Shown one piece after another: positions 56,409 through 63,767 of a DNA stretch of 64,000 nt; positions within the stretch are counted from its first letter, which is position 1, and each line of letters starts with the position of its first letter. The translations under genes were made by a program, and so were the position numbers. The notes beneath the pieces were generated by a model that made no database searches, had not been told where the DNA came from, and saw only the letters and a program-made list of their open reading frames with translations. Origin of the DNA: Terriglobia bacterium (GTDB taxonomy: Bacteria > Acidobacteriota > Terriglobia > Bryobacterales > Bryobacteraceae); the NCBI GenBank assembly GCA_020073615.1, contig JAIQEX010000012.1, forward strand, positions 1 to 64,000. Direction: 5' to 3'.

Positions 56409-56639
56409 ATGAAGACGACCGTCTCCTCCAAGGGCCAGATCGTTCTGCCGGCAGAGCTCCGGCAACTGGACCGCGTCGAACCAGGGCAGGAGTTCGACGT
56501 CGAGCGTGTCGATCGTGGGGACTATCGCCTCGTCCGGCGTACGGCTCCGCCGAACGAGGGTGCCGTTGACTGGCTACTGGACTGTCCGCAAAAGGGCTTC
56601 TTCGTCCCGATCGACTCTGAGTCGACGGATGCGCTATGA
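56409..56639 (+). CDS. AbrB/MazE-type antitoxin
   Basis: A 76-residue swapped-hairpin DNA-binding antitoxin: MKTTVSSKGQIVLPAELRQL is the classic AbrB start, followed by EPGQEFDVERVDRGDYRLVR and a C-terminal toxin-binding tail (GAVDWLLDCPQKGFFVPIDS). It overlaps the PIN-toxin gene by 4 bases and should repress the operon through the palindrome at 56387-56405. Confidence 0.9.
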   Translation: MKTTVSSKGQIVLPAELRQLDRVEPGQEFDVERVDRGDYRLVRRTAPPNEGAVDWLLDCPQKGFFVPIDSESTDAL

Positions 56640-57046
56640 AGTACCTGGTCGATGCTAACGTTCTGAGCGAGCCGACGAAACCGACGCCCGATCCACGGGT
56701 CGTGGCGTGGCTTCGCGCACATGAGCCAGATATTGCCGTCGATCCCGTGATTCTCGGCGAACTCCGATTCGGGATTCTCCTCCTTCCCAAGGGAAGGAAG
56801 CGGGCTGCCCTGGAACGCTGGTTCGACGCGGGGGCACGGCGTCTCCACTGTCTTCCCTGGGACGCGGACACGGGGCTGAAATGGGCGGAACTGCTGGCGC
56901 GTCTTCGCACAACCGGCAAAGCCATGCCGATCAAGGATAGCCTCATCGCGGCGACTGCGGCCGTCCACGGTCTGGCGGTCGCCACGCGAAATCGAGCTGA
57001 TTTCGTGAACGCCGGCGTGCGTCTCGTCAATCCATTCGTTGCTTGA
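56636..57046 (+). CDS. vapC: VapC-type PIN-domain toxin (second module)
   Basis: A 136-residue PIN ribonuclease with all acidic positions: KYLVDANVLSEPTKP (Asp), DPVILGELRFGIL (Glu), AMPIKDSLIAATAAVHGLAV (Asp) and ATRNRADFVNAG (Asp in the usual xNxxDF box). Paired with the AbrB-type antitoxin by a 4-base overlap. It is not closely similar to the vapC at 55519. Confidence 0.9.
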   Translation: MKYLVDANVLSEPTKPTPDPRVVAWLRAHEPDIAVDPVILGELRFGILLLPKGRKRAALERWFDAGARRLHCLPWDADTGLKWAELLARLRTTGKAMPIKDSLIAATAAVHGLAVATRNRADFVNAGVRLVNPFVA

Positions 57047-57524: not shown

Positions 57525-58754
57525 ATGACCCCAGCCACTGTTAAACAACGAGGCAGCGAGCAGGCTTCTGACAAGACCGCCATTCACCCATTCCATGTGA
57601 ATGTTCCGGAAACCGAACTGAACGAATTGCGCAGGCGCATCAACGCGACAAAGTGGCCTGAACGAGAAACGGTTACAGATGCATCCCAAGGAGTACAGCT
57701 CGCGACGATTCAGGCGCTGGCGCGCTATTGGGCGACAGATTATGACTGGCGCAAGATCGAGGCAAAGATGAACGCCCTGCCGCAGTCCATCACCGAGATC
57801 GACGGGCTGGACATTCACTTCATTCACGTCCGTTCAAGACACGACAATGCGTTGCCCCTGATCGTTACGCACGGATGGCCCGGCTCGATCACCGAACAGA
57901 TGAAGATCATCGATCCGCTGACCAATCCCACCGCACACGGCGGAAATGCATCCGATGCGTTCCATGTCGTGATTCCGTCGATGCCGGGCTACGGGTTTTC
58001 CGGCAAGCCGTCCACCACTGGCTGGGACCCCGGCCACATCGCAGGTGCCTGGACCGTGCTGATGAAGCGCCTCGGATACACGAAATTCGTGGCGCAGGGT
58101 GGCGATTGGGGTGCGATCATCACCGAGCTAATGGGGGTGCAGGCGCCACCGGAATTGCTGGGCATTCACACCAACATGGCTAACGTGATTCCACTCGACA
58201 TCGACAAGCTGGCCTTTTCCGGCGCGCCGGCGCCGGCGAATCTCTCGGCCGACGAGAAACTCGCTTACGAGCGGCTGAGCATCGTCTATGCGAAGGGCAT
58301 CGGCTACGGCTTCCAGATGGGGTTGAGACCGCAGACGCTGTACGGAATAGCGGATTCACCGGTCGGCCTGGCGGCCTATTTTCTCGACCACGACGCGCGC
58401 AGCTACGAGCTGATCGCACGTGTCTTTGCCGGAGGGAGCGAAGGCCTCACACGAGACGACGTCCTCGACAACATCACGCTCACCTGGTTGACGAATACGG
58501 CGCTCTCAGGGGCCCGTCTCTATTGGGAGAACAAGGGGGCGTCGTTCTTCGCCGTCAAAGGCGTCGTGGTCCCGACGGCCGTGAGCGTCTTCCCTGACGA
58601 GCTCTATCCTGCTCCACGGAGTTGGGCGGAGCGGGCGTATCCCAAACTGATCCATTACAACAAGGTCGACAAGGGCGGGCACTTTGCGGCCTGGGAACAG
58701 CCACAACTCTTCACAGAAGAGGTTCGTGCGGGCTTCAGATCGCTGCGCAACTAG
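57525..58754 (+). CDS. Epoxide hydrolase family (alpha/beta hydrolase)
   Basis: A 409-residue protein with the N-terminal epoxide-hydrolase domain (FHVNVPETELNELRRRINAT, then WPERE) and the alpha/beta-hydrolase fold: oxyanion motif THGWPGS, PSMPGYGFSGKP, nucleophile elbow AQGGDWGAIIT (Asp nucleophile), and the catalytic His in DKGGHFAAWEQPQLF. These residues match microsomal/juvenile-hormone-type epoxide hydrolases. An AAGGAG site precedes the ATG. A second copy of its C-terminal end lies just downstream. Confidence 0.92.
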   Translation: MTPATVKQRGSEQASDKTAIHPFHVNVPETELNELRRRINATKWPERETVTDASQGVQLATIQALARYWATDYDWRKIEAKMNALPQSITEIDGLDIHFIHVRSRHDNALPLIVTHGWPGSITEQMKIIDPLTNPTAHGGNASDAFHVVIPSMPGYGFSGKPSTTGWDPGHIAGAWTVLMKRLGYTKFVAQGGDWGAIITELMGVQAPPELLGIHTNMANVIPLDIDKLAFSGAPAPANLSADEKLAYERLSIVYAKGIGYGFQMGLRPQTLYGIADSPVGLAAYFLDHDARSYELIARVFAGGSEGLTRDDVLDNITLTWLTNTALSGARLYWENKGASFFAVKGVVVPTAVSVFPDELYPAPRSWAERAYPKLIHYNKVDKGGHFAAWEQPQLFTEEVRAGFRSLRN

Positions 58755-59374: not shown

Positions 59375-59809
59375 CTACGGCAGAAAGTCCGGGTCCAGCA
59401 AAACGTCCAGCGTATACGGGCAGGTGCCTGGGAAATCCGATTCCGGATGATTCGTTTCCGTCATGGCATCCACCACCGCGCGCTCGTAGGCTTCGGCCAG
59501 GTCCTCCGCGAGACCGGATTGGAGGCTTGGATTCCGCGACAAGAGCCGGGCGAGATCCTTCCGCTGCACGCGGATGGTCAGTTCCCAACTGCGAGACCTG
59601 CGGCCAGCCTGCACCTTCCACTTCAGGAGGTGCGCGATGAGAATGCCCAGGCGCGACAGCAACTCCCGGCGCTCGCGTTGTCCCATGTCCTCGATTTCCT
59701 CGGCAATGTGCTCGAGGTCGGCTTCGCCCGCCCGGCCGGCGCGCAGCAGTTCCGCGTTCCGCCGGGTCCATTCGTAGAAATCGCGGTCGTACAGTTCGGC
59801 GGACTCCAT
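59375..59809 (-). CDS. DUF29 family protein
   Basis: A 144-residue protein with the DUF29 pattern: LYDRDFYEWTRRNAELLRAG, DLEHIAEEIEDMGQRERREL, LLSRLGILIAHLLKWKVQAG and a C-terminal TLDVLLDPDFLP. Function unknown; common in cyanobacteria and soil bacteria, often in accessory regions. The last 90 bases are duplicated at 56216-56305. Confidence 0.88.
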   Translation of the reverse strand: MESAELYDRDFYEWTRRNAELLRAGRAGEADLEHIAEEIEDMGQRERRELLSRLGILIAHLLKWKVQAGRRSRSWELTIRVQRKDLARLLSRNPSLQSGLAEDLAEAYERAVVDAMTETNHPESDFPGTCPYTLDVLLDPDFLP

Positions 59810-59825
59810 AAGGCGATTATAAAGC

Positions 59826-60575
59826 CTACCGCGCCTTCAGCTGTTCGGGCAGCACGGCGTAGCCGTCGGGCGGCGGGTAGAGCGACATCAGCAACTCCAG
59901 GCGGCGGCGCAGGTAGCGGCTGGGCATCTGCCGGGGACCGGTCTCGACGTCGATGTCGCAGCAGGTGCCGTGCAGGTACAGGGTGAGCGTGTCCTCGAAG
60001 GCCTGGCGCGCGTACTCGCGGAACAGCTTGGTCTCCTTGCGCACGTTGGTCTGGCGGCGCTGTAACGCCTGCTTCAGGTGCCAGCTCTTCTCGTCGACTT
60101 CGCCGTGGACCTCGGCGCTCAACTCCTCGCGGATGGTGCGAAAGAAGCGCTCCTGCACCTCGCCGGTCCAGCGCTCCGCCAGCAGGGCGGCCAGGGCGTT
60201 GTAGAACTGGTAGTGGTAGTCGGCTACTTCGATGTCCTTGATGCCCAGCGCCAGCACGGTCATATCGCCCAGCGAGCGGCGCGAACAGGGGATCTGGCGG
60301 GGCTCGGGCGGGCGCTCGAAGGTCACCGTGTCGCCCTCTTTGCCGTTGCTCTTTTCCAGATACGGCGCCAGAATGATGCCCATGAGCGGGAGGGTAGCGA
60401 CGATGGCCGGTGAGATGGCGGCAATAGGGTCGTTCAGGTACTGGCGCAGATCGTCCTCCGCCACCGGCAGGGTGGAGAAGTAGGAGAACTTGTTGGTGAG
60501 CGGAATCATCTCGCTGCGAAAGCGCGCGGCCAGATCGTCCACGGTCAGTTTGAGTCGTTCTGCGTCTGAGGACAT
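59826..60575 (-). CDS. Conserved hypothetical protein upstream of lpxB
   Basis: A 249-residue soluble protein from the ATG at 60575 (MSSDAERLKLTVDDLAARFR); the track adds 10 residues. Features include the internal LRQYLNDPIAAISPAIVATL, PRQIPCSRRSLGDMTVLALG and CCDIDVETGPRQMPSRYLRR. No enzyme motif is recognised. It is divergent from lpxB with only about 47 bases between the starts, so the two may share a promoter region. Confidence 0.7.
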   Translation of the reverse strand: MSSDAERLKLTVDDLAARFRSEMIPLTNKFSYFSTLPVAEDDLRQYLNDPIAAISPAIVATLPLMGIILAPYLEKSNGKEGDTVTFERPPEPRQIPCSRRSLGDMTVLALGIKDIEVADYHYQFYNALAALLAERWTGEVQERFFRTIREELSAEVHGEVDEKSWHLKQALQRRQTNVRKETKLFREYARQAFEDTLTLYLHGTCCDIDVETGPRQMPSRYLRRRLELLMSLYPPPDGYAVLPEQLKAR

Positions 60576-60622
60576 CCCGGTGGTTCGATTGTAACAGGGC
60601 GGCAAGCTAAACTCTTAATGGG

Positions 60623-61786
60623 ATGGTCCGGAAGATCCTGATTTCCGCAGGCGAAGCGTCGGGCGACCTGTACGCCGCGCTGCTGGTGGAGGAACTGCGG
60701 CGCGCCTGGCCCGATGCGGACTTGTTCGGCTGCACCGGGCCGCGGCTGCGGGCGGCCGGCGTGCACACGGTAGTGGACGCGGCTGCGCTGGCCGTGGTGG
60801 GCCTGGCGGAGGTGGTAACGCATATTCCGCGCATTTACGGCGAATACCGCAAGCTGCTGGCCGCGGCGCGCGCCGGGAAGCCGGATCTGGCGATCCTCAC
60901 GGATTCGCCCGATTTCCACCTGCGCGTGGCCCGGAAGCTGCACCAACAGGGCGTTCCCGTGGTTTACCTGGTGGCGCCGCAGGTGTGGGCCTGGCGAAAA
61001 GGGCGATTGCGGACCATCCGGCGCACCGTGCGGCGGCTGCTGTGCATCTTTCCCTTTGAAGAGGAGTTCTTTACGCGCGCGGGAGTGGCGGCGACGTACA
61101 TCGGGCACCCCCTGGCCGGGCTGGTGCGGCCGTCTCTCAGCCGGGACGATTTTTTTCGGAAACACAGGCTGGCCGCGGGCCGTCCATTGATAGCAGTGCT
61201 ACCCGGAAGCCGCCGCGGCGAAGCGGCACGTCATCTGCCGGCGTTGCTGGACGCCGCCGAGCGGTTATACCGGGAGCAGGCAGTGCATCTGATTCTGCCG
61301 GCCTCGGCTACGGCCGGGGCCGCCTTTTTCCGGGAACGCCTGGGTGGTTCGCCGGTTCAAGTGATCGAAGGAGAGAGCTGGGACGCCATGGCGCACGCCG
61401 ATGTCGCGCTCGCCGCGAGCGGGACGGTAACGGTGGAGGCAGCGCTTCTGGGCACACCGATGGTGACATTTTACAAGGTGACGCCGCCGAGCTGGCTGGC
61501 CGGCAAGCTGCTGGTGCGCGTCCCGTTTTATTCCATGGTGAACCTGATCGCTGGCCGCGCCGTGGTGCCGGAGCTGATGCAGGGACAGATGACCGGCGAG
61601 GCGTTAGCTCGCGAAGCGCGCCGGCTGCTGGCCGATGAAGGCGCGCGCACGCGCATGAAGGCCGGCCTGGGGGAAGTGCGAGAAAAGTTGTCGCGCGGGC
61701 CGGCGGGGGCAGGACAGTCCGCGCCGGGCTACGCCGCCGCCATCGTTCAAGAAATCCTGGAAGGACAAGTTGCACATGTTTCGTGA
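60623..61786 (+). CDS. lpxB: Lipid-A-disaccharide synthase
   Basis: A 387-residue glycosyltransferase of family GT19 that joins UDP-2,3-diacylglucosamine and lipid X to make lipid A disaccharide, on the inner face of the inner membrane. Characteristic segments are ILISAGEASGDLYAALLVEE, DSPDFHLRVARKLHQQGVPV, YLVAPQVWAWRKGRLRTIRR, YIGHPLA, IAVLPGSRRGEAARHLPALL and AASGTVTVEAALLGTPMVTF. It shows that the host makes lipopolysaccharide. The next gene overlaps its end by 11 bases. Confidence 0.97.
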   Translation: MVRKILISAGEASGDLYAALLVEELRRAWPDADLFGCTGPRLRAAGVHTVVDAAALAVVGLAEVVTHIPRIYGEYRKLLAAARAGKPDLAILTDSPDFHLRVARKLHQQGVPVVYLVAPQVWAWRKGRLRTIRRTVRRLLCIFPFEEEFFTRAGVAATYIGHPLAGLVRPSLSRDDFFRKHRLAAGRPLIAVLPGSRRGEAARHLPALLDAAERLYREQAVHLILPASATAGAAFFRERLGGSPVQVIEGESWDAMAHADVALAASGTVTVEAALLGTPMVTFYKVTPPSWLAGKLLVRVPFYSMVNLIAGRAVVPELMQGQMTGEALAREARRLLADEGARTRMKAGLGEVREKLSRGPAGAGQSAPGYAAAIVQEILEGQVAHVS

Positions 61787-63767
61787 CCTCCGCACCCATG
61801 CAGCCGCGCCGGCAATGGCCGGCCTGCTGCTGTTCGCCGCGACGCTTGCCGCGCCGGCTCAGGAGCGCCGCTCCACCTCCCGCATCGACGTCGAACAGTA
61901 CACCATCGACGCCGATATTTCGCCCAACACGCAGTCGGTCTCGGCCAAGGCAACCGTGCGGTTCGTCCCGGTGGATGACAACGTCACTTCGGCTTCATTC
62001 GAGCTGAACAACGCGCTCAACGTGTCGCGCGTGGTGGACGACAAGGGGAAACAGATTTCCGCGTCGCGCAACCAGCAGGATTTCACGGTGCGCCTGAGCT
62101 TCGATCAGCCGCTGCCCAAAGGGCAGCCGGTCACCATCACCTTCTATTACGACGGCAAGCTGACGGGGCAGGAAGACTCGCCCGTGTACGGCATCAAGTT
62201 CGCCGCCATCCATCCCGATTTTTCGTATCTGATGTACCCGGCGCGCTGGTTTCCGGTGAGCGGGTACACGACCGACCGTTTCGCCGCCGACATGCACGTC
62301 ACCGTGCCGATGGGATACGCGGTGCTGGGCAGCGGCCTGGATTCGCGGCAGACAGCGGGCGACAAGAACACCTACCAGTGGCGGTTCGACCGGCCGTCGT
62401 TTCCCGGCAGCATCGCGGTGGTGAAGGGCGACCCCGCGAAGGTGCAGTCGGAAGGCGTCACCACGGCGGTGTATTTCCGCGGACCTGAGGCGGACATGGC
62501 CCAGCCGTACGGGCAGGAGACCGGCAAGGTGATGTCGTTTTTCACGGGCACGTTCGGCCTGCCGCCCTATGCCAATCTGACGGTAGTGGAGACCGAGGCG
62601 GGCGCGCCCAACGGCTATGCCGCACCCGGCCTGATTTTCCTCGCGCCCAAGGGCATCGGACGGCAGCCCAACGGCAAACTGCTGGCCAACGAAGTTTCGC
62701 GCCAGTGGTGGGAGGAACTGGTTTCGCCCACCACCCGCAATCACCTGTGGCTCACCAACGGGCTGGCGGCCTACTCCGAGCTGCTGTGGAGCGAACATGC
62801 CAACGGCCCGGCCGCCATGGAGACCCAGCTCCGCGACGTGATGGTGGAATCGCTCACCGTGGATACGGTGCCGATCATCCAGTCCGCGCGCCTGGAAGAC
62901 TACTCACCGGAACTGTGGGCGCTGACCGGCAGCAAGGGCGCGGCGGTGATGAACATGCTGCGCTACGTGCTGGGCGATGCCAAGTTCTTCGAGACCCTGA
63001 AAGCTTACGCGCAGCAGGACGCCTGGAAATCGGTGAACACCGACGATTTCCGCAAGGTGGCGGAGACGGTCGCGGGCAAGGATATCGGCTACTTCTTCAT
63101 CCAGTGGATCGAATCGTCGGGCGCGCCCGAGTTCAAGCTGGAGTACACCGTTTTCCGCACCACCAAGGGGTTCCGCGTGCAGGGGAAGATCTCGCAGGAT
63201 CTGGACACGTTCCGCATGCCGGTGGACCTCAAGATTGAAACCGAAGGCAACCCGGAAGAGGCCAAAGTGGAAGTGGTGGGAACGTCGTCGGAATTCTCGA
63301 TCGACACCTTCGGCAAGCCCAAGAACGTGGTGATCGACCCCAACAACCGGGTGCTGCGCTATGCTCCGCAGGTGCGCGTGGCGGTGGCCATCCGGCGCGG
63401 CGAGCAGTTCGCCGAGCTGAGCGAATTCGGCGACGCGCTGAAGGAGTACCAGAAGGCGCTCGAGACCAACCGCCAGAGCTCGCTGGCGCACTACCGCATC
63501 GCCGAAGTGGAGTTTCTGCAAAACAACTTCCAAGGAGCGGCCAACGATTTCCGCGAAGCGCTGAACGGCGACCTGGAACCCAAGTGGACGGAAGTGTGGG
63601 CCCACATCAACCTGGGGAAAATCTTCGACGTGAGCGGGCAGCGCGAGCGCGCGGTGAACGAGTACAATCTGGCCATTCGCACCAAGGACAACACGCAGGG
63701 CGCGCAGGAAGAGGCCGGCAAATTCCTCAAGACGCCCTACGAACGGCAGAAGCGGGTGGAGCAGTAA
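61776..63767 (+). CDS. M1 aminopeptidase homologue without its zinc site
   Basis: A 663-residue exported protein from ATG 61776 (signal peptide APAMAGLLLFAATLAAPAQ). The N-terminal beta domain and the gluzincin fold of M1 peptidases are evident, but the zinc motif HExxH reads NEVSR (residues 305-309, LLANEVSRQWWEELV) and the third ligand in the usual NEG is Asn (LTNGLAAYSELLW). The spacing between ligands is exactly that of M1 enzymes. It should therefore be a non-catalytic pseudo-peptidase. The C-terminal 90 residues form TPR-like helices (EFGDALKEYQKALETNRQSS). It overlaps lpxB, so it is co-expressed with lipid A synthesis. Confidence 0.88.
   Translation: MFRDLRTHAAAPAMAGLLLFAATLAAPAQERRSTSRIDVEQYTIDADISPNTQSVSAKATVRFVPVDDNVTSASFELNNALNVSRVVDDKGKQISASRNQQDFTVRLSFDQPLPKGQPVTITFYYDGKLTGQEDSPVYGIKFAAIHPDFSYLMYPARWFPVSGYTTDRFAADMHVTVPMGYAVLGSGLDSRQTAGDKNTYQWRFDRPSFPGSIAVVKGDPAKVQSEGVTTAVYFRGPEADMAQPYGQETGKVMSFFTGTFGLPPYANLTVVETEAGAPNGYAAPGLIFLAPKGIGRQPNGKLLANEVSRQWWEELVSPTTRNHLWLTNGLAAYSELLWSEHANGPAAMETQLRDVMVESLTVDTVPIIQSARLEDYSPELWALTGSKGAAVMNMLRYVLGDAKFFETLKAYAQQDAWKSVNTDDFRKVAETVAGKDIGYFFIQWIESSGAPEFKLEYTVFRTTKGFRVQGKISQDLDTFRMPVDLKIETEGNPEEAKVEVVGTSSEFSIDTFGKPKNVVIDPNNRVLRYAPQVRVAVAIRRGEQFAELSEFGDALKEYQKALETNRQSSLAHYRIAEVEFLQNNFQGAANDFREALNGDLEPKWTEVWAHINLGKIFDVSGQRERAVNEYNLAIRTKDNTQGAQEEAGKFLKTPYERQKRVEQ

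Follow-up and report, generated by a model that had tools for sequence, protein, structure and literature searches.

What does a protein do that has the fold of an M1 aminopeptidase, a predicted export signal and none of the zinc ligands on which that family depends, and that is encoded directly after the gene for lipid-A-disaccharide synthase? This question is raised by one gene pair in the window, by which we mean the whole 64,000-nucleotide stretch of Terriglobia bacterium DNA analysed here, and our answer is that the second gene encodes an ancient pseudo-peptidase that probably serves envelope assembly as a periplasmic binding or chaperone-like factor (we put the probability at roughly 0.55). 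The gene pair, the domains of the protein and the remains of its active site are as follows.

60623..61786, forward strand: lpxB, lipid-A-disaccharide synthase (Pfam LpxB E=3.2e-88; TIGR00215 over its cut-off)
61776..63767, forward strand: M1-fold pseudo-peptidase with C-terminal TPR, 663 aa (ATG at 61776, stop ending at 63767)
61776..61859, forward strand: predicted Sec-type signal peptide, aa 1-28 (read from the sequence; modelled as a low-confidence tail)
61866..62480, forward strand: N-terminal beta domain, aa 31-235 (secondary structure of the model; alignment with active M1s)
62481..63134, forward strand: thermolysin-like domain, aa 236-453, active site lost (PF01433 match and model)
62688..62702, forward strand: NEVSR in place of HExxH, N305-E306-V-S-R309 (alignments with the family and with active M1s)
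62754..62762, forward strand: TNG in place of NEG, T327-N328-G329, N328 being the third zinc ligand position (alignments)
62928..62930, forward strand: G385 where the catalytic Tyr would stand, two residues ahead of a conserved KG (alignment with active M1s)
63135..63365, forward strand: C-terminal beta-sandwich, aa 454-530 (model; second in conservation among the domains)
63366..63731, forward strand: TPR superhelix of seven helices, aa 531-652 (Pfam TPRs, model, per-domain entropy)

The frame of the gene is intact, and AAGGA, a Shine-Dalgarno-like sequence, lies about 10 nt 5' of ATG 61776; a TTG 6 bases 5' of this ATG would add two residues but is too near AAGGA. Homology of the product to M1 peptidases exceeds chance, Pfam PF01433 (Peptidase_M1) matching aa 300-444 with E=2.9e-16 and 60.2 bits against a cut-off of 27.7 bits. 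The fold of the whole chain places it in the same family, given that the AlphaFold2 model, made from an alignment of 79 sequences, is confident (pLDDT 91.5, pTM 0.87) and has four domains, and that a Foldseek search with it returned IRAP, ERAP1 and other whole M1 enzymes at E of about 1e-30 and a probability of 1.00. The N-terminal beta domain carries an ARxFP-like M1 signature (A156-RWFP-160), and at the other end the TPR superhelix occupies the position of the M1 C-terminal helical domain. The initial annotation had read both a signal peptide and TPR helices from the letters of the sequence, and both readings stand: the predicted signal peptide ends APA-Q and has no lipobox Cys, the Gln that follows it (Q29) is almost invariant among relatives, and TPR_2 (E=2e-9) and TPR_1 exceed their Pfam cut-offs as tandem motifs that appear as helical pairs in the model. 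Indeed, the TPR part is the most conserved of all, with a mean entropy of 1.41 bits against 1.70 for the C-terminal beta domain and 2.22 for the peptidase part, and many family-invariant residues (P602, W604, G614, D618, R623 and Y630) cluster in the final TPR pair. W608 and D618 of the window protein would sit at positions that in TPRs are often turned to the ligand groove.

How thoroughly has the active site been lost? At the columns in question, eight active M1 relatives, five of them from the same genome as the window, show without exception the series His, Glu, His, Glu together with the catalytic Tyr, so that the ligand loss first noticed in NEVSR and TNG is confirmed, and it is broader than had been claimed. 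The catalytic Tyr at residue 385 is gone too, the window protein reads GAPNGYAAPG where GxMEN aligns, and the 663-aa protein thus lacks each of the marks of an active M1 enzyme: HExxH, a Glu as third ligand, a Tyr before KG and GxMEN. Nor is this a peculiarity of one sequence, for HExxH is found in none of 202 aligned family members (168 distinct sequences), the first zinc His being replaced in every one by N, R, T, K, D, L, Q or S. Among the same 202 members the third-ligand column holds N in 155, D in 20, Q in 11 and E in only 7, 3 of 57 family rows still have Tyr at its own position (G, A or S in Bryobacteraceae), and GxMEN is absent from all family rows shown in the alignments across clades. 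The loss of catalytic residues across the family is well supported. One detail of the initial annotation applies to the window protein and goes no further: E306 does retain the catalytic Glu, but the consensus of the 110 close homologues is NQxxR...xNG, with Gln at that column in 98 of them and Gln, Thr or Arg in most relatives, so that a retained Glu is not a property of the family and in the window protein it is incidental, a minority state.

The family is widespread, with homologues in every one of the 41 genomes that make up the nearest set (the window's own included), in 248 of 257 Bryobacterales genomes and in many of 297 sampled Acidobacteriota genomes. This distribution is the one within Acidobacteriota, the phylum covered, and the scan of named genomes covers its best 80 loci. 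Comparison with relatives at 97, 82 and 72% identity gives dN/dS of 0.05, 0.17 and 0.20, values that indicate purifying selection on the gene. Plasmid records yielded 43 matches, many annotated as M1 peptidases; each of them is less than 60% identical and falls short of 80% query coverage. In the tree the proteins that share M1 fold, ligand loss and TPR form one clade apart from active M1s with support of 99/99, or 81/79 once a divergent member (L268) joins it, and branches inside the clade track taxonomic families. The zinc site would have been lost a single time, close to the root of a clade widespread in Acidobacteriota, with the protein then retained as a non-catalytic one.

Two relatives with an intact motif turned up. 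One, L207 (311-2269, reverse strand), from Acidobacteriota family f29 (genome G535), is an M1-TPR protein with HEIGH...E intact and a candidate active relative; it is distant (24-26% identity), the window protein is the sequence that it matches best over the full length once its own genome is set aside in the phylum sample (E=7.8e-56), and it clusters with active M1s on a long branch. We considered it as a counter-example, that is, as a close homologue with intact HExxH, and rejected it as distant, free of lpxB linkage in the DNA read and grouped with active enzymes. The other, L254 (1171-3339, reverse strand), is an M1 protein, again with HEIGH...E, whose profile match extends into the TPR region. 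Since L207 joins M1 and TPR with an intact motif among active enzymes, the TPR fusion may predate the zinc loss, as far as a long branch allows one to judge.

The overlap with lpxB that had been reported is 11 nt long, the lpxB stop lying inside the downstream gene, and it is far from unique to the window. In all 77 named Bryobacterales loci that are not cut by a contig end, lpxB immediately precedes the gene on the same strand, and the identical 11-nt overlap recurs in 37 of these; lpxB also adjoins the gene in 8 of 8 loci of families f2/f3, in 18 of 18 members of what we call the RRxAY clade and, in the short flanks read, in 24 of 27 Acidobacteriaceae. The coupling is accordingly confirmed and old, but it is not family-wide, given that lpxB adjoins in none of the 13 loci of the REVAY clade, a large one. 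Genes farther upstream of lpxB differ among lineages, which marks out the pair itself as the conserved unit. In L221, for example, the genes upstream of the pair encode an NtrC-type (sigma-54) response regulator, an ECF sigma factor and a tRNA methyl transferase/MnmA-type protein, and L226, L227 and L232 carry related genes in matching order. A wider outer-membrane operon with bamA, skp and lpxA/D was considered and rejected, the upstream genes of the L221 clade being others and lpxB alone common. In the window itself a 259-aa protein without a Pfam match (59826-60605, reverse strand) is encoded divergently from lpxB and recurs at this position in several Bryobacterales loci; beyond it lie genes for a DUF29 protein (59375-59809, reverse strand, E=1.9e-48), an epoxide hydrolase (57525-58754, forward strand, EHN plus alpha/beta hydrolase) and a PIN-domain protein (56636-57046, forward strand, Pfam E=1.9e-12) that resembles the VapC-type toxin of a toxin-antitoxin pair. 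LpxC and LptD were found in the window's genome, so that LPS is probably made and exported there. Across the sampled phylum 272 of 297 genomes have lpxB, whereas matches to the family at E<=1e-40 were reached in 113, part of which are active M1s, and the family is therefore no general requirement for LPS.

What, then, might the protein be doing? In most lineages it would be produced directly after lpxB, often from an overlapping start codon. Most likely it is a periplasmic adaptor, binding or chaperone-like in its action, that serves envelope proteins, perhaps clients of outer-membrane or LPS assembly. Contacts would be made chiefly through the TPR groove and the C-terminal beta domain, with the emptied peptidase cleft a docking site at most. 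A periplasmic binding or scaffolding role in outer-membrane assembly had already been suggested; it fits the anatomy of the protein, and what points to it is the signal peptide, the conservation of the TPR and the linkage. We infer the function and the link to LPS, as we do the periplasmic location (from the signal peptide) and the non-catalytic mode of action. A more specific version, in which translational coupling to lipid A synthesis keeps the amount of a periplasmic TPR chaperone or adaptor for envelope assembly in step with LPS production, is something we hold tentatively and think somewhat unlikely as stated. Adjacency to lpxB is by itself no proof of common function and, because LpxB is cytosolic and the pseudo-peptidase is predicted to be exported, direct contact between the two is unlikely.

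The same considerations feed the strongest competing explanation, a serious contender that we would nevertheless bet against, which is that the pseudo-peptidase has a job unrelated to LPS or the outer membrane and that its site after lpxB is an old and handy promoter position passed on by vertical descent. LpxB and an exported protein cannot readily interact, the REVAY clade sits away from lpxB, and a tree that tracks taxonomy means that the linkage may be inherited rather than selected; what speaks for more than inheritance is that the pair endures while genes on either side change between lineages, and that the exact overlap is repeated in 37 of the 77 loci. It is quite improbable, by comparison, that the protein is still an enzyme, with some other metal site or chemistry in the old cleft, such as an Asn/His/Asp site in Acidobacteriaceae. 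This idea draws on a second His kept in Acidobacteriaceae and in families f2/f3, an acidic third-ligand residue kept in several clades and a catalytic Glu kept in the REVAY clade. However, no common residue set exists at the site: Bryobacteraceae have N/Q/R/N at the former zinc-site positions (NQxxR), Acidobacteriaceae mostly N/T/H/N (NTLAH), one set of families mostly R/R/Y/D (the RRxAY clade) and another R/E/Y/Q (the REVAY clade). Variation of this kind from clade to clade argues against a common new active site and makes a new type of metal site unlikely, and nearly the whole family lacks the catalytic Tyr and GxMEN. Finally, that a single gene is decaying in one genome, which the missing catalytic residues might suggest, is refuted by the same loss in 202 of 202 members, homologues in 248 of 257 genomes, dN/dS well below 1 and the intact frame, and we give it next to no credence. 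Purifying selection and the complete absence of intact HExxH from the 202 members, the presence of which in close homologues had been named as the refuting observation, strongly support the pseudo-peptidase reading.

Why does this matter? Catalysis appears to have been lost and the protein kept across much of the phylum, which would make the M1 fold re-usable as a bacterial non-enzyme; and if databases label these genes 'M1 aminopeptidase', the label would be wrong as to activity. A literature search for M1 proteins linked to lpxB, or for M1-TPR proteins of Acidobacteria, gave no match and, within the reach of the searches made, these pseudo-peptidases appear to be new as a described family. 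Acidobacteriota are abundant in soil and their outer membrane has been little studied, so the coupling to lpxB could offer a direct entry to envelope biogenesis in these organisms.

The closest comparison is of course with the M1 aminopeptidases themselves (PF01433; IRAP, ERAP1 and the Deinococcus M1 enzyme 6a8z), which share the N-terminal beta, thermolysin-like and C-terminal beta fold and, by sequence and structure matches, the W and G positions around the motif that are also conserved in the window protein. The pseudo-peptidase family differs in being without zinc ligands, catalytic Tyr and GxMEN, and the last domain is TPR in the window protein as opposed to HEAT/ARM-like in the aminopeptidases. 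L207 has the M1, C-terminal beta and TPR architecture of the window protein but keeps HEIGH...E, has additional N- and C-terminal parts and lacks lpxB in its 4-kb contig, and the two could serve as a natural before-and-after pair for the change from peptidase to scaffold. TAF2 is a eukaryotic nuclear protein, and so a different case, for which we know of no peptidase activity, TPR or export signal. Its aminopeptidase-homology domain (D1-D4) is part of TFIID (PMC6220335), and the resemblance, an M1-type domain serving as a structural part of an assembly, is a likeness in kind. In layout, the nearest parallel is BepA of E. coli, a periplasmic M48 metallopeptidase with a TPR for which contacts with LptD and the BAM complex have been reported (PMC8423444). 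BepA differs in that M48 is unrelated to M1 (Pfam and NCBIfam scans of the 663-aa protein gave no M48 match), its zinc site is intact and its catalysis is used, and we claim no homology beyond the TPR. The analogy, an exported peptidase-fold domain followed by a C-terminal TPR, is nonetheless instructive, for the protease-dead E137Q form of BepA has weakened yet retained assembly-promoting activity (PMC8423444), a precedent which suggests that a layout of peptidase fold plus TPR can act in envelope assembly.
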